Shown piece after piece: positions 1 to 10,497 of a stretch of DNA of 64,000 bases (its first letter is position 1; the number at the start of each line of letters is the position of its first letter). The position numbers were made by a program, and so were the translations under genes. Source of the DNA: Gluconacetobacter aggeris (GTDB lineage: Bacteria; Pseudomonadota; Alphaproteobacteria; Acetobacterales; Acetobacteraceae); assembly GCF_014174395.1 (NCBI RefSeq), contig NZ_JABEQD010000010.1, positions 62,001 to 126,000 on the forward strand, written 5' to 3'. The notes beneath the pieces were generated by a model. The model searched no databases. It was not told the origin of the DNA and was given only the letters and a program-made list of their open reading frames with translations.

Positions 1-1
1 C

Positions 2-1186
2 CATTCCCGCTCGCAGAAGGGGCAGGAAGATTTCGTATGGAGCACCCGCGCCGCCGCCGCCGGCGGCGTCACGACGATTGCCGATATGCCCTATGATGAC
101 GGGTTCCTGGTCTGCACGGCCGACAATCTGCGCCAGAAGGCGCGGGAAGCCGGTGAGCAGGCCCGCGTCGATTTCGCGCTGTGGGGCACCATCGCCCCCG
201 ATGACGGCCCGCACCATATCCCCGAAATGGCGCGGGCCGGCGCCTGCGGCTTCAAATTCTCGACCTTCGGCACCGATCCCGTCCGCTTCCCCCGCATCCC
301 GCCGGACCTGCTGGCCGCCTGTTTCGAATCCGTGGCCCAAACCGGCCTGATCGCCGGCGTGCATAACGAGGATGACGAAATGGTCCGCGCGCGGATCGCG
401 GCGGTGACCCGCTCGGGCATCACCGACTGGCGCGCCCACGGCCTGTCCCGCCCGGCGCTGGCCGAAACGCTGGCCATGGCCCAGATCTACGAGACGGCAG
501 CCGCCACCGGCTGTTCGGGCCATGTCGTCCATTGCTCGGTCGCACGCGGCTATGCGCTGTGCGAATCCTATCGTCGGCAGGGGTTCGATACGACGATCGA
601 AGCCTGCATCCACTATCTGGTGCTGGACGAGGAGCATGACGTCGCCCGGCTGGGCGGCCGCGCCAAGATCAATCCCCCCATCCGCCCCCGCGCCGAGGTC
701 GAAGGCATCTGGCACCATCTGGCCGCCGGCAACGTCACGATCGTCTCGACCGACCATGTGTCCTGGTCGCTGGCCCGCAAATCCGACCCCGACATGCTGA
801 AGAACGCGTCCGGCGTGCCGGGACTGGACGTAATCTATCCCCTCCTGCTGACCGAACTGTCCCGCCGCAACCTGTCCCTCACCCACGCCAGCCGGCTGCT
901 GTCGGAAAACCCGGCCCGCCTGTTCCGCCTCACCGCCGGCAAGGGCGGGCTGGCCCCGGGCCGGGACGCCGACATCACCATCGCCCGGCGCGAGACCTGG
1001 CGCTACGACCCAGCCGCCAGCGACAATGTCCTGACGGACTGGAGCCCCTATGCGGGCCGCGAACTCGACTGGCGCATCGCCGGAACATGGCTGCGCGGGC
1101 AACAGGTCTTCGACGGGCGGACCGTCCTCGCCACACCGGGCACCGGCCGCTTCGTCACGCCCGAACAGCCCTCCGGCCTGCGATGA
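2..1186 (+). CDS. Cyclic amidohydrolase (hydantoinase/allantoinase/dihydroorotase type), 5' end outside window
   Basis: The frame is open from base 2, so the start codon lies upstream. About 394 residues are visible. The fold is a metal-dependent amidohydrolase of the cyclic-amide group: GGVTTIADMP near residue 22, a likely carbamylated lysine in GFKFST (about residue 85), HNED (about 121), HVVHC (about 177) and STDH (about 251) supply the usual metal ligands. Such enzymes open hydantoin, allantoin or dihydropyrimidine rings. The stop overlaps the next start (ATGA), so it is coupled to a carbamoyl-amidase, the enzyme that would act on the opened ring. With the DUF917 and urocanase-like genes downstream, I infer a hydantoin-5-propionate-type substrate. 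Allantoinase is the main alternative; the context argues against it. Confidence 0.85.
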   Translation, partial: HSRSQKGQEDFVWSTRAAAAGGVTTIADMPYDDGFLVCTADNLRQKAREAGEQARVDFALWGTIAPDDGPHHIPEMARAGACGFKFSTFGTDPVRFPRIPPDLLAACFESVAQTGLIAGVHNEDDEMVRARIAAVTRSGITDWRAHGLSRPALAETLAMAQIYETAAATGCSGHVVHCSVARGYALCESYRRQGFDTTIEACIHYLVLDEEHDVARLGGRAKINPPIRPRAEVEGIWHHLAAGNVTIVSTDHVSWSLARKSDPDMLKNASGVPGLDVIYPLLLTELSRRNLSLTHASRLLSENPARLFRLTAGKGGLAPGRDADITIARRETWRYDPAASDNVLTDWSPYAGRELDWRIAGTWLRGQQVFDGRTVLATPGTGRFVTPEQPSGLR

Positions 1187-2436
1187 GCATCGCCACGCAC
1201 GTCCGGCCCGACCGGCTCCAGGCCGATCTCGACGCCCTGGCCGCCATTACCGATCCCGGCCGCCCCCATACGCGCCGCTCCTTCTCGCCCCGCTTTCTCG
1301 AAGGCCGCGCATGGCTCGCGACGCGCTTCCAGCAGGCCGGCCTCACCACCCAAATCGACGAGTCCGGAAACCTGATCGGCCGCCGCGGCGGCACCACGCC
1401 CGGCCTCGGCACGCTCATGACCGGCTCGCATTCCGACACGGTGCCCGATGGCGGCCGTTTCGACGGCATTCTCGGCGTCCTGGCGGCGCTGGAGGCCGCA
1501 CGGGCCTTCGCCGATGCCGGGATCGCCCTGCGCCACGACCTCGAAATCGTCGATTTCCTGGCCGAGGAACCCAGCGATTTCGGCCTGTCCTGCATCGGCA
1601 GCCGTGGCATGGCCGGCGCCTTGTCGGCCGAGCATCGCACCCTGCGCGCCCCGTGGGACGAAAGCCTGGCCGACGCCCTGGCCCGCATGGGCGGCGATCC
1701 CGGCCGGCTGGACACACCGCGCCGCACCGATATCCGGGCTTTCTTCGAACTGCATATCGAACAGGGCATCGTCCTGGAGCAGGCACAGACCCAGATCGGC
1801 GTGGTCGACGCCATCGCCGGCGTCACCCGGCTGGAAATCGTCTTCTCCGGCCGCGCCGACCATGCCGGCACCACGCCGATGGACCTGCGGCAGGACGCCG
1901 CCGTCCCCGCCGCCGCGATCGTCGGCTTCGTCCACCAGCGGGCCAGCGCGCTGGCCCGCTCCGGCGCAGGCCATGTCACAGCTACCTGCGGCGTGCTCGC
2001 CCTCTCCCCCGGCGCCTCCAACGTCATCCCGCGCTCTGCCCGGCTGGTCGTCGATATCCGCGTCTCCGAACGCCCGGTCGCCGAAGACCTCGTGGCATCG
2101 ATCCACGCGGCCTGCACCGACGCCGCCCAGGCCAGCCGCACCACCCTCGCCCGCTTCGCGATCCAGTCCGACACGCATCCCACGCCATGCGACCCGGCAC
2201 TGGCCGCACTGGTCGAGGCCGCAGCCCACGCGCAGGGCTTCACCACCCGCCACATGGTCTCCGGCGCCGGGCACGACGCCGCCTTCGTCGCACGGCTGGC
2301 GCCGATGGCCATGCTCTTCGTCCCCTGCCGCGACGGCCGCAGCCACGATCCGGAAGAATGGTGCGCGCCCGAAGACGCCACGCGCGGAACGATGGTCCTC
2401 GCCGAAGCGATCGGCCTGCGCGACCGCACCGACTGA
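1183..2436 (+). CDS. M20-family N-carbamoyl-amino-acid amidohydrolase (Zn-dependent hydantoinase/carbamoylase family)
   Basis: 417 residues, normal for the AllC/HyuC/beta-ureidopropionase family. Visible metal-site motifs are GSHSDT (His83), GGRFDG (Asp94), AEEPSDF (Glu128/129), ELHIEQG (His191) and GRSHDPEE (His388). GRADHAGTTPMDLRQDA is the usual dimerisation and substrate region, and SGAGHDAAF precedes the C-terminal metal ligand. The enzyme removes the carbamoyl group as CO2 and ammonia. It overlaps the cyclic amidohydrolase before it by 4 bases, a standard hydantoinase-carbamoylase pairing. The likely substrate here is N-carbamoyl-glutamate or a close relative (inference from neighbours); allantoate is an alternative. 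A second, distinct M20 amidase at 25772-27022 belongs to the pyrimidine pathway. Confidence 0.88.
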   Translation: MSIATHVRPDRLQADLDALAAITDPGRPHTRRSFSPRFLEGRAWLATRFQQAGLTTQIDESGNLIGRRGGTTPGLGTLMTGSHSDTVPDGGRFDGILGVLAALEAARAFADAGIALRHDLEIVDFLAEEPSDFGLSCIGSRGMAGALSAEHRTLRAPWDESLADALARMGGDPGRLDTPRRTDIRAFFELHIEQGIVLEQAQTQIGVVDAIAGVTRLEIVFSGRADHAGTTPMDLRQDAAVPAAAIVGFVHQRASALARSGAGHVTATCGVLALSPGASNVIPRSARLVVDIRVSERPVAEDLVASIHAACTDAAQASRTTLARFAIQSDTHPTPCDPALAALVEAAAHAQGFTTRHMVSGAGHDAAFVARLAPMAMLFVPCRDGRSHDPEEWCAPEDATRGTMVLAEAIGLRDRTD

Positions 2437-2463
2437 ACCAGGAACACACAGGAAAGAACCAAG

Positions 2464-3570
2464 ATGGGCCGTATACTGGTTGAAAAGGATGTCGAATCCG
2501 CCATCGCGGGCGGTTCCATCTTCGCCTGCGGCGGCGGCGGCTGGGTCGAGCATGGCCGCATGCTGGGCACGGCCGCGGTCAATGCGGGCCAGCCCGAACT
2601 AGTCGGCGCGGACGAGATCGCCGACGACGCGATCATCGCCACCGCCGCCGCCATCGGCGCCCCCGCCAGCACCACCGAATGGCAGATGCTGGGCGTCGAT
2701 TACGTCAACGCCGTCCGCCTGGTGGAGAAGGAGCTGGGCCGTCCCATCTACGGGCTGATGATCGGTCAGAACGGCAAGTCCAGCACGCTGAACGCCTGGC
2801 TGCCGGGCGCCATCCTGGGCACCAAGGTCATCGACGCGGTCGGCGACATGCGCGCGCACCCGACGGGCGACATGGGCTCGATCGGCATGGCGGGCTCGCC
2901 CGAGCCCATGATCCAGGCCGTGGTAGGCGGCAACCGCGCGAACGGCGCCTATCTCGAAGTCGTCGCCAAGGGCGCGACCGCCCGTGTCTCGCCCATCCTG
3001 CGCACGGCCTCCGACATGTCCGGCGGTTTCATCGCCTCATGCCGCAACCCGCTGCCGGCCGCCTACGTCAAGCGCCATGCCGCATGGGGCGGCATCTCGC
3101 GCGCCCTGGCATTGGGCGAGGCCGTGCTGGCCGCCCGCCCCAAGGGCGGCAGCGCGGTCATCGACACCATCACCCGCGCGCTGGACGGCGCCATCGTGGC
3201 CCAGGGCAAGGTCTCCCGGAAATCGGTGGCCTACACGCCGGAAGCCTTCGATATCGGCACCATCACCGTCGGCACCGGCGAACAGTCCGTCACGCTGCAC
3301 GTCATGAACGAATATATGGCCCTGGACGATGCCGGCGGCAGGCGGATCGCCTCCTTCCCCGACATCATCACCACGCTGTCGCCCGAAGGGCACCCCCTCA
3401 GCGTCGGCGAAATCGTCGAAGGCATGGAAATCCTTGTCCTGCACGTGGACAAGAGCAAATTCCCGCTCTCGTCCAGCGTGCTCGACCCCGCGGTCTATCC
3501 CCCCGTCGAACGCGCGCTCGGGATCGACCTGACCAGTTACGCCCTCAGCTTCATCGGCGACAGGGGCTAG
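2464..3570 (+). CDS. DUF917 family protein, S-methyl-thiohydantoin desulfurase-like
   Basis: 368 residues with the DUF917 layout: an N-terminal FACGGGGWVEHGR stretch (about 20-32), NGKSSTLNAWLPG (about 102-114), DMRAHPTGDMGS (about 128-139) and a C-terminal beta-rich part ending in YPPVERALGID. The family (now S-Me-THD in Pfam, as I recall it) includes enzymes that remove the sulfur group from an S-methyl-thiohydantoin formed during S-methyl-ergothioneine breakdown. A purine-rich AGGAAAG precedes the ATG. It lies 27 bases after the carbamoylase and 3 bases before the urocanase-like gene, so it is in the same operon. Other DUF917 proteins act on other hydantoin-like rings or are uncharacterised, so the substrate is inferred from context. 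Confidence 0.82.
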   Translation: MGRILVEKDVESAIAGGSIFACGGGGWVEHGRMLGTAAVNAGQPELVGADEIADDAIIATAAAIGAPASTTEWQMLGVDYVNAVRLVEKELGRPIYGLMIGQNGKSSTLNAWLPGAILGTKVIDAVGDMRAHPTGDMGSIGMAGSPEPMIQAVVGGNRANGAYLEVVAKGATARVSPILRTASDMSGGFIASCRNPLPAAYVKRHAAWGGISRALALGEAVLAARPKGGSAVIDTITRALDGAIVAQGKVSRKSVAYTPEAFDIGTITVGTGEQSVTLHVMNEYMALDDAGGRRIASFPDIITTLSPEGHPLSVGEIVEGMEILVLHVDKSKFPLSSSVLDPAVYPPVERALGIDLTSYALSFIGDRG

Positions 3571-3573
3571 ACC

Positions 3574-5232
3574 ATGACGAAACAACAGTTCGGCGTCACC
3601 TCGGGCGGCAATCTGCGATGCCGCGGCTGGCGGCAGGAAGGGCTGCTGCGCCTGCTGGAAAACGTGCTGTCGGTCGGCGAGGACCCGGCCAACCTCGTCG
3701 TCTACGCAGCATTGGGCAAGGCCGCCCGCGACTGGCCGTCGCACGACGCCATCGTCCGCGCCCTGACCACCATGGGCGATGACGAAACCCTGATCGTCCA
3801 GTCCGGCAAGCCGATCGGCGTCGTGAAAACGCACGAACGCGCGCCCATCGTCGTCATGGCCAACTGCAACATCGTCGGCCAGTGGGCCCGCGCCGAGGAA
3901 TTCTACCGGCTGGAAAAGCAGGGGCTGATCTGCTGGGGCGGGCTGACGGCCGGCGACTGGCAATATATCGGCTCGCAGGGCGTCATCCAGGGCACATACG
4001 AGATCTTCCGCCGCATTGCCGAACGGCATTTCGACGGCGACCTGACCGGGCGCCTGATCCTCACCTCCGGCCTCGGCGGCATGGGCGGCGCCCAGCCCCT
4101 GGCCGGACACCTGGCCGGCGCGATCATCCTGTGCGTCGAGGTCGATGACGCCCGGATCACCCGCCGCATCGAAAGCGGCTACCTGCAACATCGCGCAACC
4201 TCGCTGGACGACGCATTGCGCCTGGTCGAAGAGGCCCGCGCAACGGGCGATGCCCGTTCCATCGGCCTGTGCGGCAATGCGGCGGATATCTTCCCCGAAC
4301 TGCTGGCCCGCGGCATCATCCCGGATATCGTCACCGACCAGACCTCGGCCCACGATCTGGTCTACGGCTACGTGCCGGCCTCCCTCACCCTCGACCAGGC
4401 GAAGGCCCAGCGCCAGAGCGACCCGGAATCCCTCTCCCGCCTGGCCCTGCAATCGATCGCCCGCCACGTGCAGGCCATGCTCGATTTCCGCGCCGCCGGC
4501 GCGGTCGTCTTCGACAATGGCAACCTGATCCGCACCCAGGCCCAAAAGGCCGGGATCGACCACGCCTTCGACATCCCGATCTTCACCGAAGCCTATCTCC
4601 GCCCGCTCTTCGCGCGCGGCATCGGCCCGTTCCGCTGGATCGCGCTCTCCAATGACGAAGCGGATCTGCGGAAAATCGACGAATACCTGCTGGAAACATT
4701 CGCCGACAATCCATCGATCGTAAACTGGATCACGCTCGCCCGCCGCTTCATCCCCATCGAGGGCATGCCCGCCCGCATCGCCTGGCTGGGTCATGGCGAC
4801 CGGACGAAAGTGGGGCTGGCCGTCAACCGCATGGTGCGCGAGGGCATCCTCTCCGGCCCGGTGGCCTTCACCCGCGACCATCTGGACGCGGGCGCGATGG
4901 CCCACCCCAACATCATGACCGAAAACCTCAAGGACGGCTCCGACGCCATCGCCGACTGGCCGCTGCTGAACGCCATGCTCGCCTGCTCGTCACAGGCCGA
5001 CCTGGTGGCCATCCATTCCGGCGGCGGCGGCTATGCCGGCTATATGACGAGCGCCGGCGTCACCACGATCGCCGACGGCTCGTCGGAAGCCGACGAACGC
5101 CTGCGCCTGACCCTGACCAACGACACCAGCCTCGGCGTCATGCGCTACGCCGACGCCGGCTACCAGGAGGCATTCGAGGAAATCGACCGCCAGCACATCC
5201 CCTATATCAACCTCGCCACGCCCCATCCCTGA
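3574..5232 (+). CDS. Divergent urocanase (urocanate hydratase family), probably acting on a modified urocanate
   Basis: 552 residues, the usual urocanase length. The NAD+-binding stretch SGLGGMGGAQPLAG (165-178) is intact, as are DQTSAHD, RDHLDAGAMAHPN and DGSDAIADWPLLNA. Several conserved spots differ from histidine-pathway HutU: the motif usually ARICW reads ARIAW, so the conserved cysteine (Cys410 in Pseudomonas, from memory) is Ala403; YGNNIR reads NGNLIR; and HHGGGVGMG reads HSGGGGYAGY from His481. No hutH, hutI or hutG is seen. The DUF917, hydantoinase and carbamoylase partners suggest hydration of thiourocanate, S-methyl-thiourocanate or N-methyl-urocanate. A short palindromic element begins 3 bases after the stop. 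Family membership is firm; the substrate is inferred. Confidence 0.85.
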   Translation: MTKQQFGVTSGGNLRCRGWRQEGLLRLLENVLSVGEDPANLVVYAALGKAARDWPSHDAIVRALTTMGDDETLIVQSGKPIGVVKTHERAPIVVMANCNIVGQWARAEEFYRLEKQGLICWGGLTAGDWQYIGSQGVIQGTYEIFRRIAERHFDGDLTGRLILTSGLGGMGGAQPLAGHLAGAIILCVEVDDARITRRIESGYLQHRATSLDDALRLVEEARATGDARSIGLCGNAADIFPELLARGIIPDIVTDQTSAHDLVYGYVPASLTLDQAKAQRQSDPESLSRLALQSIARHVQAMLDFRAAGAVVFDNGNLIRTQAQKAGIDHAFDIPIFTEAYLRPLFARGIGPFRWIALSNDEADLRKIDEYLLETFADNPSIVNWITLARRFIPIEGMPARIAWLGHGDRTKVGLAVNRMVREGILSGPVAFTRDHLDAGAMAHPNIMTENLKDGSDAIADWPLLNAMLACSSQADLVAIHSGGGGYAGYMTSAGVTTIADGSSEADERLRLTLTNDTSLGVMRYADAGYQEAFEEIDRQHIPYINLATPHP

Positions 5233-5289: not shown

Positions 5290-6336
5290 TCAGATCCCCG
5301 GCAGGTCCTGATGCCCCTCATCCTGCCGGGATATTTCCTGCTCGCCATGCGCCCGGAGCAGGGCCAGAAGCCGCCGGCGCATGATCAGCCCCGGCCGGTC
5401 CGAGGCCATGTGCATCTCGACCCGGCGGGAGACATCCAGGATCGCATCGCAATCGGTCGCCTCCAGGATCTCGCGATCCTCCTCGATGATCGCCCGGTCC
5501 CAGGCGATCAGCTTCTCCGCGCTGCACGCGGCCTCGGTATCGTTGCGGTAGAGCAACTGGACGAGCTGGATCTTCCCGTCTTCCACCGGGGTCGCGCAAT
5601 TGATGATGATGTGCCGAATCCCCGAGGGATACAGCATGTCCATCCGGCGCGCGAAGGGCAGGTACCAGTGATTGTGCATCGTGCGCGTCGTCGTCGGATT
5701 CGGATCGCCCGTAATCGCCACCGCATGGGGCGGGTTGACCACATCCACGACGGTCGTGGCCTGGAACCCGTAATCGGTCTCCTCGATCCTGTAGACGCGG
5801 GGCCGGGGTTGCGCCATGTCGCCGAAGGTGCCGCGATGGACGAAGGCGAAATGCGCGTTGTCGAATGAATTTTCCATCAGCCGCAGCGGCGCCGTGTTCC
5901 ACTGGTCGTAGAACTGGAAGATGCGCCGGAACCCCGGATCGCGATCCTCGGGAATATCGAACAGTTCCACCAGCGGCTCATCCAGCGCGACCCAGGCATA
6001 GCCATAGCGCGCCTGGCAACCATAGGCCCGCGCGCGGAAATCCGGCAGCGCCGCGCCGGGCGCCTGCTGCGGAATCGCCACCACCGCGCCCGTCCCGTCA
6101 TAGCGCCAGCCATGATAGCCGCAGACCAGCTCGCCTTTGTCGCACCACCCTTTGGACAGTTTCGCAGTGCGGTGGCAGCAGCGATCCTGCAAGGCCCTCG
6201 GCGCGCCCTCCGCGTCGAGGAACAGCACGATATCCTCGCCCATCAGCCGAAAGGGTTTCGGACCGTCCGACAGATCCGCCAGCGGAACCGTCGCATACCA
6301 GAACCGGCGCAGGACTTTCTGCCGGGTCGTCAGCAT
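5290..6336 (-). CDS. Rieske non-heme iron oxygenase, VanA-like alpha subunit
   Basis: 348 residues. The Rieske [2Fe-2S] site is CCHR (Cys53, His55) with CGYHGW (Cys72, His75). The mononuclear iron site is DNAHFAFVH (Asp159, His162, His167). Length and layout match the single-component-alpha group of vanillate or dicamba demethylases, which hydroxylate rings or oxidatively remove N- or O-methyl groups. AGGAGAGC precedes the ATG. It is the last gene of the ten-gene minus-strand operon, 9 bases after the deaminase-like gene. No ferredoxin or reductase partner is seen nearby, so electrons must come from a product encoded elsewhere. The substrate is unknown; given the operon, a (methylated) N-heterocycle is likely. 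Confidence 0.88.
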   Translation of the reverse strand: MLTTRQKVLRRFWYATVPLADLSDGPKPFRLMGEDIVLFLDAEGAPRALQDRCCHRTAKLSKGWCDKGELVCGYHGWRYDGTGAVVAIPQQAPGAALPDFRARAYGCQARYGYAWVALDEPLVELFDIPEDRDPGFRRIFQFYDQWNTAPLRLMENSFDNAHFAFVHRGTFGDMAQPRPRVYRIEETDYGFQATTVVDVVNPPHAVAITGDPNPTTTRTMHNHWYLPFARRMDMLYPSGIRHIIINCATPVEDGKIQLVQLLYRNDTEAACSAEKLIAWDRAIIEEDREILEATDCDAILDVSRRVEMHMASDRPGLIMRRRLLALLRAHGEQEISRQDEGHQDLPGI

Positions 6337-6345
6337 CGCGCTCTC

Positions 6346-7734
6346 CTATCCTGCAAGGGACATCAGCCGTGCGACCACGGCGCGGGCACGCGCCATCAGG
6401 CGCGGCAGGTCCAGGCCGGGAATGGCGCCGTCCACCACCACGGGCCGCCCCGCGCACAGCACATGCCGCACCGAGGACGGGCCGCAGATGACCGGGGCAA
6501 GCAGCGGATCGTGCAGCCCCGCATGGCGCGGCGCGTCCAGCGCGTGAATCGCCAGGTCCGCGACCTGGCCGACCGCGACCGTCCCCAGTTCCGTAAAGCC
6601 CAGCATGGCGGCGCCGGATGCGCTGGACCAGCGCAGCACGTCCTCGACCCGCGCCGCATCGGGGCCGCCCATCGCCCGCTGGATCAGCCAGGCATTGTGC
6701 ATCTCGCTGGCCATGTCGCACGCCTCGTTCGACGCGGCCCCATCCACGCCGATCGCCACCCGCCCGCCGGCACGCTCCAGCGCGCTCGCCGGCGCCACGC
6801 CGGAGCCGAGGCGCCCGTTGCTCTGCGGACAATGGACCATGAAGGTGCCGGTAGCCGCCAGCAGCGCAATCTCGTCGGCATCGATATGCACCAGATGCGC
6901 GAAGGACACGTCGGGCCCCACCCAGCCGCAGCGCGCGGCGAACGCCACCGGACGGCAGCCATGGGTTTCGGCGCAGAACGTCACGTAATTGGTGGTTTCC
7001 GACAGATGGGAATGCAGCCCGATCCCCAGGCGGCGGGCGGCGGCGGCCATCTCCTTCAGCTCGGCCGGCGTCGCCCCCCAGGTCGGCGTGTTCGGCGCCA
7101 GCAACACGCGCCGCATGCTGTTCGGGCCGCTATCATGATAACGCGCGGCCAGCCCCTCGACATGGCGCAGCATGCCGTCCAGCGTCTCGACGGGCATCGG
7201 CACGACATCGTCATTGTCATAGACCCGGTCGCGGGTGGTGCCGCCGCGCGACAGGCACAGGCGGATGCCCATCCGCTCCGCCGTCTCGAACAGGATCGCC
7301 GCCGGATCGTATCCGCTCTCTCCTACGGGAGAAAAGGAGGCGAAAGGATAATGATGGTCATTGACCATCGTGCAACCGGACAGCAGCAATTCCGCCATCC
7401 CCACCTCGGCGGCGGTGCGCAGCGCCTCCTCGTCGAAACGGTGCCAGTAGCGCACGGGCACCAGCCGCAGCCAGGTTTCCAGCCGGGCGTCGATCGCGGC
7501 GGGCACGGCCTTGAGCATGCTCTGGAACAGATGATGATGGGCACTGACCAGCCCCGGCGTCACCACCCCGCCGGCGGCATCCAGCACATGGTCGCCGGGC
7601 CGGGCCGCCACCGCGCCGATCTCGGCAATGCGCCCGTCATGGATGCGGATATCGCCCCGGCACCGCTCGCCGGGGCCGCGCAGCCCGGTCAGGATGCCAA
7701 CGGCATTGCGAATGACCAGATCCGCGCCCATCAT
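6346..7734 (-). CDS. Amidohydrolase, 8-oxoguanine deaminase / TRZ-ATZ family
   Basis: 462 residues. Metal ligands are visible as SAHHHLF (HxH, His66/His68), GLHSHLSE (His241/243), FAHLVH (His280) and GVDGAASNE (Asp331). HCPQSNGRLGSG and the ASNEACDMASEMHNA segment are typical of 8-oxoguanine, isoxanthopterin and chlorotriazine deaminases or dechlorinases. The role would be hydrolytic deamination of a purine-, pterin- or triazine-like ring. The start chosen overlaps the stop of the gene upstream (ATGA at 7731-7734). It is followed 9 bases later by the Rieske oxygenase, which may act before or after deamination. The exact substrate cannot be read from the sequence. Confidence 0.85.
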   Translation of the reverse strand: MMGADLVIRNAVGILTGLRGPGERCRGDIRIHDGRIAEIGAVAARPGDHVLDAAGGVVTPGLVSAHHHLFQSMLKAVPAAIDARLETWLRLVPVRYWHRFDEEALRTAAEVGMAELLLSGCTMVNDHHYPFASFSPVGESGYDPAAILFETAERMGIRLCLSRGGTTRDRVYDNDDVVPMPVETLDGMLRHVEGLAARYHDSGPNSMRRVLLAPNTPTWGATPAELKEMAAAARRLGIGLHSHLSETTNYVTFCAETHGCRPVAFAARCGWVGPDVSFAHLVHIDADEIALLAATGTFMVHCPQSNGRLGSGVAPASALERAGGRVAIGVDGAASNEACDMASEMHNAWLIQRAMGGPDAARVEDVLRWSSASGAAMLGFTELGTVAVGQVADLAIHALDAPRHAGLHDPLLAPVICGPSSVRHVLCAGRPVVVDGAIPGLDLPRLMARARAVVARLMSLAG

Positions 7735-8732
7735 GCCGGCACCACCTGCGCCGCATCGGCAAAACGCGTATCGAATGCCGCGCGCCAGTCCACCCCCGGC
7801 GCGATCAGCCCGTTGCCGACCATGAATTCATATGTCGCCCGCCAGCGCGCCTCGGTCATCGACCCCAGGGCCCGCAATCCGCCCTGGCCGCCCGTCAGCA
7901 CACTGGCGGCACGCATGGTCGCGATGCCATAGGCCAGCCGCGCCTCGTCCTCGCGCGCCGAGGCCTGCCGGATCAACGCATTGCCCGGCGCCGGATCGCC
8001 ATGCAGATACTCCCGCCAGCCCATCATCGACGCCCGGACAAACCCTGTCACCGAAGCCGGATCACCACCGGCCAGTGCGCGGGTGGTCACGATGGCCGTG
8101 CCATAGGGCGGATAGCCCTCATCGGAAAAAGCAAAGAACCGCGCGGCGACCCCGGCCTGTCGGATATCGAACATCTCTGAACTGGCATAGCCCTGCACCG
8201 CGACGTCGGGAGAAACCAGAAAAGGCTGAAGATTGAACGTATAAGGCGCCGCCTGCGCAGCACTGAGTCCATAGCGCCGGCTGAGCCACGGCCAGAATGT
8301 CTGGCGCGACGAACTGGCGATCAGTATCCGCCGCCCCTTCAGGTCGGCCAGCGACCGGGCGGGCTCATGCAAAATCATGCCCTGTAGATCGTGCTGGAAC
8401 GACGCCCCGACCGTCACCAGCGGCATGCTGGCGGCAACGCCATGCAGCGTCTGGAAATCATAACCGGTGATCAGGTCGCATTGCCCGGCCAGCAGAAGCT
8501 GGACCGCATTCACCTGCGGCCCACCGTTGGAAATCGTCACGTCCAGCCCGGCATCGCGATAGAATCCCCGTGCCAGCGCCTGATAGAATCCGCCGACCGG
8601 CGCCTGGGCATACCATGCCAGGGTGAGGCGCAACGGCTTCAGCCCCCGCGCGCGAGCCGGACGGGCACGCCCCACGCCGGCCAGCAGCATGGCGCCGAGC
8701 ATCGCGCGACGCCGCGCCACTAGCGCATTCAT
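7731..8732 (-). CDS. ABC transporter substrate-binding protein, NMT1/THI5-like (copy 1)
   Basis: 333 residues from the ATG that overlaps the preceding stop by 4 bases; longer open frames upstream are the antisense of copy 2. The N-terminus MNALVARRRAMLGAMLLAG looks like a Tat-type export signal. The body has WYAQAPVGGFYQALARGFY, GGPQVNAVQLLLAGQCD and YTFNLQPFLVSPDVAVQGY, all shared with the copies at 8729-9730 and 14152-15165. Family members bind pyrimidine-like or aromatic ligands in the periplasm. It is more diverged than the other two: TSEPYA reads SSEMFD. It probably shares the single permease and ATPase of this operon. Confidence 0.87.
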   Translation of the reverse strand: MNALVARRRAMLGAMLLAGVGRARPARARGLKPLRLTLAWYAQAPVGGFYQALARGFYRDAGLDVTISNGGPQVNAVQLLLAGQCDLITGYDFQTLHGVAASMPLVTVGASFQHDLQGMILHEPARSLADLKGRRILIASSSRQTFWPWLSRRYGLSAAQAAPYTFNLQPFLVSPDVAVQGYASSEMFDIRQAGVAARFFAFSDEGYPPYGTAIVTTRALAGGDPASVTGFVRASMMGWREYLHGDPAPGNALIRQASAREDEARLAYGIATMRAASVLTGGQGGLRALGSMTEARWRATYEFMVGNGLIAPGVDWRAAFDTRFADAAQVVPA

Positions 8733-9730
8733 GCCACCACCGAAGTCAATGCGCTGGCGAACGAGAAATCGCAGGCATCCTGCCAACGCGCACCAGCGGG
8801 CAACTGCCCCGTCGCCACCAGAAAATCGCGGATCGCCTGGCAGCGCGGGGCCGTGATCGTGCCGTAGCGGGCACCCGCCGGCCCGAACACCCCCATGGCG
8901 CGGAAACGCTGCCGCGACCACATGATCTGGTCCAGCCCCATCTGCGGATTGGCCGCCCGGATGGCATCGTTGCCCGGCGTGGGGTCGCCGCTCATCCAGT
9001 CCGCCCAGCCGCGCATGCTGGCCTGGAGAAACCGCACAAGATCCTCGCGACGATGCGTCAGCACATCGCGCGTCGTCACCAGCGGATTGCCGTAATCATG
9101 ATAGGTGGCGTCATCGAGCGGAAAGAACCGGCAGGGCACCCCCGCCTTCTGCAACGCATAAGGCTCCGACGTCGCATAGGACTGGATGACCAGCCCGGGA
9201 TCGAGGATGAAGGGCTGGATGTTGAAACTGTAAGGCCGGACCTGGCTCTCATCGAACCCGTAATGATCGCGCAGCCACGGCCAGAACGCGGCACGGATCT
9301 CGGTACTCAGCAGGATCGTATGCCCCTTCAGGTCCGCCAGCCGCGTAATGTCGGGATGGGTCAGCAGCCCCACCAGCGAACTCTGGAAACTGGTCGCGAC
9401 CGCAACCGTCGGCATCCCCCGCGCCGCCGCCATCATCGTCGCGCCGATCGACCCGATGACGACGTCATACCGCCCGGCCACCAGAAGCTGCGTGTTGTTG
9501 CTCTGCGGCGCGCCATGGTCGATCGCCACGTCCAGCCCGACGTCACGATAGAACCCCCGCGCCAGCGCCTGATAGAATCCCGCATGCTCGGCCTGGGCAT
9601 ACCAGTTGGTCAGGAAGCGGAACGGCACGGAGACCGCTCGCGCCGGCCGGCTCCCGGCAACGCCCCCCAGCGCCGCCGCCGCCAGCAAGGCGCGCCGGGA
9701 CAGGGCGCGCGACAGCACGGGCCGGGTCAT
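8729..9730 (-). CDS. ABC transporter substrate-binding protein, NMT1/THI5-like (copy 2)
   Basis: 333 residues; the ATG overlaps the isochorismatase-type gene stop (ATGA). The signal region includes LSRRALLAAAALGG, a twin-arginine-like motif, then a cleavage-like SRPARA. Ligand-binding family motifs are NWYAQAEHAGFYQALARG, NNTQLLVAGRYDVVIG and YSFNIQPFILDPGLVIQSYA, then TSEPYAL. It is a paralogue of the genes on either side of the transporter core. Presumably it gives the importer a different ligand range from copies 1 and 3; the ligand is not identifiable. Confidence 0.87.
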   Translation of the reverse strand: MTRPVLSRALSRRALLAAAALGGVAGSRPARAVSVPFRFLTNWYAQAEHAGFYQALARGFYRDVGLDVAIDHGAPQSNNTQLLVAGRYDVVIGSIGATMMAAARGMPTVAVATSFQSSLVGLLTHPDITRLADLKGHTILLSTEIRAAFWPWLRDHYGFDESQVRPYSFNIQPFILDPGLVIQSYATSEPYALQKAGVPCRFFPLDDATYHDYGNPLVTTRDVLTHRREDLVRFLQASMRGWADWMSGDPTPGNDAIRAANPQMGLDQIMWSRQRFRAMGVFGPAGARYGTITAPRCQAIRDFLVATGQLPAGARWQDACDFSFASALTSVVA

Positions 9731-10497
9731 GCCCCCTCCCCCGCCGCATCCAGCGGAAACGCGTCGGCACGCGCGGTAAAACCGAAACATTGCCGGACAT
9801 TGTAAAGCGTCGCCTCGGCGCAGAAGCCGGGCGATGTCGTCGCTACGCAATCCTCCAGCAGCACGACGTCATATCCCAGCCCGTTGGCGTCCATCAGCGT
9901 GCCCAGCACGCACTGGTCGCTGTTCACCCCGGCGAAAAGCAGCGTGTCCACACGCAGATTCCGCAAAATCGAATCCAGAGGCGTATCCCAGAACCCGCTC
10001 ATCCGATGCTTGGCGATCCGGATATCCTCCTGCGACGGGGCCAGCTCGTCCACCACCTCCGCATTCCAGCTTCCATATTGCAGGACAGCGCCACTCCCCC
10101 CCGGCAGCGTGCCGCCAATCCCGCCCCCTTCGCCGGCGGGATCGTAGACATGCAGCACCGACGGGCTCAGGTTCAGCCGGTCGGGCCGCGTCCCCCAGTT
10201 CACCCACAGGATAGGCACTCCGGCCTGGCGCAGGCGCGGCAGAAAGACCCGCAGGGGCACGATCGGCGCGCGAAGGGGCGCGATATCAACCCCGATGCCG
10301 GCCAGCCAGCCATCGGGGTGGCAGAAATCGTTCTGCATATCGATCACGATCATCGCCGTGCGGGAAAGGTCGATCGTCAGCGCCTGCGGCAGCGCCGGAA
10401 CCGCCACCGGCCGCGCGCCGCGCGCCGGGCGCACCAGGCTGACCGCGTCCTGCGACACCTGCCAGCGATTGGCCGCCGTCGGGCCCAGGCCCTTCAT
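9727..10497 (-). CDS. Isochorismatase-fold cysteine hydrolase, RutB-like (ureidoacrylate/carbamoyl amidase type)
   Basis: 256 residues from the ATG that overlaps the cupin gene stop; a GTG two codons upstream is possible. The catalytic triad is visible: Asp in IDMQNDF (53), Lys in IAKHRMSGF (163) and Cys in GVNSDQCVLGT (196). The segment KHRMSGFWDTPLDSILRN closely follows the RutB pattern as I recall it. RutB hydrolyses ureidoacrylate to aminoacrylate, CO2 and ammonia; related enzymes are biuret and N-carbamoylsarcosine amidohydrolases. No other rut oxygenase genes (rutA, rutF) are visible, so this enzyme probably handles a carbamoylated or ureido intermediate of the operon's own pathway. Confidence 0.83.
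   Translation of the reverse strand: MKGLGPTAANRWQVSQDAVSLVRPARGARPVAVPALPQALTIDLSRTAMIVIDMQNDFCHPDGWLAGIGVDIAPLRAPIVPLRVFLPRLRQAGVPILWVNWGTRPDRLNLSPSVLHVYDPAGEGGGIGGTLPGGSGAVLQYGSWNAEVVDELAPSQEDIRIAKHRMSGFWDTPLDSILRNLRVDTLLFAGVNSDQCVLGTLMDANGLGYDVVLLEDCVATTSPGFCAEATLYNVRQCFGFTARADAFPLDAAGEGA

Follow-up and report, generated by a model that had tools for sequence, protein, structure and literature searches.

A nine-gene operon of Gluconacetobacter aggeris that very probably serves the breakdown of ergothioneine

The window analyzed here is a stretch of 64,000 nucleotides from Gluconacetobacter aggeris, corresponding to bases 62001-126000 of contig C10 (164,829 bases) in a genome of 4.32 Mb. 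Its leftmost genes, at 1-5232, had been described in an initial annotation as a four-gene operon for the catabolism of a thiohydantoin or modified urocanate. All four genes are present and closely packed, the hydantoinase with only its 3' part inside the window, and their coupling stands. The extent of the operon had to be revised: the four are the right-hand end of a tightly coupled nine-gene operon that extends beyond the window's left boundary, with five further genes, a lyase among them, upstream of the hydantoinase. These were read from L002, an 18 kb sequence overlapping the window's left edge (window position = L002 position - 16000). The nine genes, all on one strand, are, in order:

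-8079 to -6823 (L002:7921-9177), plus strand: LysR regulator with two helix-turn-helix stretches (Pfam and reading of L002)
-6826 to -5474, plus strand: MFS transporter (read from L002)
-5469 to -3079, plus strand: TonB-dependent receptor (read from L002)
-3067 to -1703, plus strand: MHS-type (metabolite/H+ symporter) MFS transporter (read from L002)
-1706 to -171 (L002:14294-15829), plus strand: MIO-less aromatic-amino-acid lyase, proposed ergothionase (PF00221)
2 to 1186 as the 3' part, whole gene L002:15822-17186, plus strand: predicted hydantoin-5-propionate amidohydrolase (hydantoinase), ErtD type (NF058538)
1183 to 2436, plus strand: predicted M20 N-carbamoyl-L-glutamate amidohydrolase (carbamoylase), ErtE type (NF058540)
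2464 to 3570, plus strand: predicted thiohydantoin desulfurase of the DUF917 / S-Me-THD family (NF058529; PF06032 and PF20906)
3574 to 5232, plus strand: predicted thiourocanate hydratase of the urocanase family, with Ala403 (NF058530; alignment columns; tree)

The successive intergenic gaps are -4, 4, 11, -4, -8, -4, 27 and 3 bp. The start codon of the ErtD-type gene is a GTG that precedes base 1 by 179 bases (window -178, L002:15822), and the start of the carbamoylase gene overlaps its stop. Since every operon enzyme has a Pfam match with E of 9e-14 or better, and since all 13 loci recovered from acetic acid bacteria by their lyase have the nine genes in this order, the operon is not due to chance.

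Four of the five enzymes, with the lyase as the exception, reach the cut-offs of NCBIfam equivalog models. The hydratase passes the thiourocanate hydratase model NF058530 (989.1 bits, cut-off 930), the ErtD-type amidohydrolase passes NF058538 (758.4 bits, cut-off 600) and the ErtE-type carbamoylase passes NF058540 (554.7 bits, cut-off 520). The desulfurase passes the thiohydantoin desulfurase model NF058529 (593.2 bits, cut-off 440), which speaks against its belonging to an unrelated DUF917 subfamily, a possibility raised in the initial annotation. Across 398 genomes of the phylum, with at most three candidates scored per genome, NF058530 gave six matches above its cut-off (989-1061 bits), and the best score below it among the matches listed was 720 bits.

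The earlier reading of a thiohydantoin and modified-urocanate pathway thus holds, and the same models bear on the choice, left open there, between the plain ergothioneine pathway and that for S-methyl-ergothioneine, in which an S-methyl-thiourocanate hydratase and an S-methyl-thiohydantoin desulfurase would act and methanethiol would be released. The S-methyl pathway draws on the same gene families, with a homologous hydratase and a homologous DUF917 protein; PF06032 takes its name from the S-methyl enzyme, and the operon proteins do match the S-methyl models, the hydratase at 753.3 bits (NF058531) and the desulfurase at 279.5 bits (NF058532). Both scores, however, lie below the respective cut-offs (880 and 450), whereas both plain models are passed. 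Controls with the opposite pattern exist, as the hydratase and desulfurase of Agrobacterium pAtAch5 and of genome G168 pass the S-methyl models, while those of Burkholderia arboris pass the plain ones. Further evidence comes from a hydratase tree of 43 rows, in which the operon hydratases group with the solved relative 7ned (100/99), apart from an S-methyl-like group of 8q9v, pAtAch5 and G168 (100/98). Going by the curated models, we choose the plain ergothioneine route as the one that the operon would encode, and we regard the S-methyl route as highly improbable.

An operon for histidine utilization with a diverged HutH and HutU would use the same lyase and hydratase families. The hydratase also lies above the cut-off of the broad hutU model (696 against 375), and no other urocanase (one PF01175 match only), HAL-family lyase or separate HutU or HutH was found in the G. 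aggeris genome. Yet the hydratase has changed where HutU is constant. As the initial annotation had noted, the active-site cysteine of urocanases is replaced by alanine: alignment column 403 is Ala in 23/23 operon hydratases and Cys in 15/15 HutU. Fifty-eight alignment columns are invariant among the operon hydratases (all 23) and carry other residues in 14 or more of the 15 HutU. In the tree the HutU rows form one side of a branch (100/100), away from the operon hydratases and 7ned. The prediction of an altered ring substrate for the hydratase holds, and this substrate is likely to be 2-thiourocanate, an already known one. The hut route has no place for a DUF917 protein or a carbamoylase, the operon lyase is without the MIO triad, and two congeners (G592 and G601) have a separate HutU-like protein besides the operon hydratase. 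The curated cut-offs, the tree and the fixed residues led us to reject both the S-methyl and the histidine routes, the latter being extremely unlikely in our judgment.

The lyase was found where the initial annotation had proposed to look for one, its gene starting 1.7 kb to the left of base 1. It is the genome's sole PF00221 match. Its best sequence match in the PDB is the Treponema denticola ergothionase 6s7j (E 2.4e-52), followed by the histidine ammonia-lyase 7tqr (6.1e-44), with the remainder at 8.1e-36 or weaker; no NCBIfam ergothionase model turned up for it or for the Burkholderia lyase. We aligned 41 rows, comprising 22 operon or ergothionase sequences (15 acetic-acid-bacterial, 5 rhizobial, one from Burkholderia and that of T. 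denticola), 12 histidine ammonia-lyases (HAL) and 7 other PF00221 lyases. The MIO triad Ala-Ser-Gly is replaced, in a form one residue shorter, in 22/22 operon/ergothionase rows and is present in 12/12 HAL. It is also missing from six of the seven other lyases, so that its absence is needed but not specific for an ergothionase, and as the sole mark of one we rejected it. A 2026 paper (PMC13405746) describes ergothionase as being without MIO. We infer that a MIO-less lyase would require a good leaving group, and the trimethylamine of a betaine would be such a group.

Across all 22 rows, T. denticola included, 50 positions do not vary. Sixteen of them are never seen in the 12 HAL, and six of these (Lys63, Leu108, Ser196, Asp305, Ser318 and Gly374) are absent from the seven other PF00221 lyases too; one of the seven, from L093, has 9 of the 16. 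In the lyase tree, in which several branches are long, a branch (99/96) separates the 22 rows from the others. The acetic-acid-bacterial and rhizobial lyases form a branch of their own (100/100), and the grouping of the T. denticola and Burkholderia enzymes has weak support (85/56); identity to the T. denticola enzyme in a structural alignment is 25-28%. A predicted structure for a close relative of the lyase (13 rows, mean pLDDT 76.5, active-site region partly of low confidence) shows the expected fold. With it Foldseek ranked ergothionase first, and VIA-align gave a tie (ergothionase Z 34.8, histidine ammonia-lyase Z 35.1), for which reason we do not use the fold to discriminate between the two. 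We know of no assayed member of this lyase's clade. As judged by its sequence, the lyase is of the ergothionase type.

We suggest that the operon very probably serves the breakdown of ergothioneine, and probably its uptake as well; our confidence was lowered by a shade because the absence of the MIO triad proved non-specific. The pathway is a known one, of which acetic acid bacteria have the complete set of genes here, and with its reaction products the steps would be as follows. The MIO-less lyase would split ergothioneine into 2-thiourocanate and trimethylamine. The urocanase homologue would then hydrate 2-thiourocanate, with NAD+ as the internal electrophile in the way of urocanases, to 3-(5-oxo-2-thioxoimidazolidin-4-yl)propionate, a thiohydantoin that the DUF917 protein would hydrolyze to hydantoin-5-propionate and sulfide. 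Ring opening by the cyclic amidohydrolase would give N-carbamoyl-L-glutamate, from which the M20 enzyme would take off the carbamoyl group to leave glutamate, CO2 and ammonia. The gain for the cell would be nitrogen, carbon and perhaps sulfur. For the second to fifth steps the curated cut-offs establish family membership, and for the first there are homology and the ergothionase-type sequence features; the substrates themselves we infer. The genome has no EgtD match, so the substrate would come from outside. Judged from gene order, the LysR protein is the probable regulator of the operon, and the TonB receptor with the two MFS carriers may bring the substrate in or carry a product out.

The closest named relatives of the operon proteins are in Gluconacetobacter asukensis and G. 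tumulicola (94-99% identity). The 13 loci that a scan with the lyase found are in Gluconacetobacter, Acetobacter, Gluconobacter and Komagataeibacter; at locus L026 the match to the hydratase extends over fewer residues (493). Within the genus, 6 of 14 genomes have a hydratase above the cut-off, and exactly those six have a lyase at 71% identity or more, the other eight reaching 33% at most. Among 200 genomes of the family, six pass the desulfurase cut-off. Three of them have the operon (G000, G174 and G060, the last with all nine genes in order), and the others (G064, G044 and G124) have no other operon gene within the 17-20 kb read around the desulfurase. Farther away, five rhizobial loci keep all five enzymes and have, in the stretch read, no match to the operon's TonB receptor or its two MFS carriers. 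Two hydratase operons, L064 (genome G487) and L071 on a Paracoccus plasmid, have no lyase within the stretch read, and the one PF00221 match of G487 is of the HAL type. Because of these two, the later enzymes need not imply the lyase.

Such operons also bear on a further alternative, namely that the pathway starts from free thiourocanate or from another thiolated or otherwise modified histidine betaine, in which case a related betaine would be the substrate of the lyase. The lyase is in fact the most diverged of the enzymes, at 54% identity to Komagataeibacter against 79% for the hydratase and 81% for the desulfurase, and it falls in an alphaproteobacterial clade separate from the T. denticola enzyme. 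Against this, the enzymes that follow the lyase exceed the cut-offs of models whose names refer to the ergothioneine route, and a thiourocanate product implies a 2-thiohistidine betaine as its source. We consider this alternative very unlikely, and ergothioneine the probable substrate.

The transport genes allow less firm statements. The family of the TonB receptor is large (28 matches in the G. aggeris genome), and relatives at 75-81% identity are found in 5 of the 14 genomes of the genus, all five without the hydratase. In these congeners the relative occurs with an MFS1-like gene kilobases off on the other strand, and no operon enzyme is near it in the stretch read. An exclusive ergothioneine receptor is thus unsupported, and transport of ergothioneine by the TonB receptor is no more than a proposal. 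A better-placed candidate is the MHS-type carrier, as a 45% relative adjoins the lyase of Burkholderia arboris. The LysR regulator carries about 116 extra N-terminal residues and two helix-turn-helix stretches, and long-aligning relatives at 26-28% identity are near four other hydratase operons (L063, L064, L070 and L071).

The known bacterial ergothioneine pathway (NF058529, NF058530, NF058538, NF058540) has the same five enzyme types, which are here all in one operon; what differs is that they are packed into one unit with their own transport and control genes, the two-helix-turn-helix LysR protein, the TonB receptor and the two MFS carriers. Among the papers listed for ergothioneine together with Gluconacetobacter, TonB-dependent or acetic acid bacteria, none names such an operon in its title or the start of its abstract. 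A bolder reading would make the operon a self-contained cassette leading from ergothioneine import to glutamate, with the TonB receptor and the MHS carrier as a new uptake route and a lyase lineage distinct from that of T. denticola; we hold this to be possible, though somewhat less probable than its opposite.

Fungi and some bacteria make ergothioneine, a sulfur antioxidant that people obtain from food. In fruit, vinegar and kombucha, acetic acid bacteria live alongside yeasts and moulds. These shared habitats and the conserved operon together suggest that acetic acid bacteria consume ergothioneine there, releasing trimethylamine and sulfide. The operon also supplies candidate ergothioneine transporters, and it gives specific names to public genes that are vaguely annotated: in a Rhizobium record the same five enzymes appear as 'aromatic amino acid ammonia-lyase', 'amidohydrolase family protein', 'Zn-dependent hydrolase', 'DUF917 family protein' and 'urocanate hydratase'.

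The genes directly right of the operon, all on the minus strand, are:

5290 to 6336, minus strand: Rieske oxygenase
6346 to 7734, minus strand: PRK12393-type amidohydrolase (630 bits, cut-off 543)
within 5290 to 9850, minus strand: two NMT1-like binding proteins (by eye)

In a comparison covering about 4.5 kb past the hydratase at each locus, relatives of the genes at 5290-9850 adjoin the operon in only 2 of the 13 loci, both from the nearest relatives. We therefore rejected these genes as part of the operon's system and take them as a separate module.

Several smaller observations concern the individual enzyme families. The carbamoylase and its relatives keep, in an alignment, the motifs that we take to bind metal. 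In the amidohydrolase, L002:15981-16022 (window -19 to 22) reads DxQxH in the query and its relatives (24/24 rows), the first His being replaced by Gln relative to DxHxH, the metal motif of cyclic amidohydrolases. Proteins above the desulfurase cut-off are also encoded in L067:11012-14765, in the matching part of L068 and in L066:13697-14773 (487, 483 and 518 bits), with no hydratase or lyase within the stretch read at any of the three. The setting in L067 consists of an amidase, an AtzH-like protein, the desulfurase and a TctC-type binding protein, and the family perhaps has a second role at these three loci, on another hydantoin or thiohydantoin.

The Burkholderia arboris lyase (L072:14127-15758) has, by eye, an apparent N-terminal signal peptide, which, if real, would mean periplasmic release of trimethylamine in that organism; none was seen by eye in the G. 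aggeris lyase. Another PF00221 lyase without the Ala-Ser-Gly triad is encoded at L102:9303-10949 on the minus strand (G451:C1:25387-26757, also L093). In the tree it groups neither with the HAL branch nor with that of the ergothionase type, it has 9 of the 16 ergothionase-type positions, and its gene adjoins those of a glycine-betaine-type binding protein and an ornithine-cyclodeaminase-like protein; perhaps it releases trimethylamine from some other betaine.
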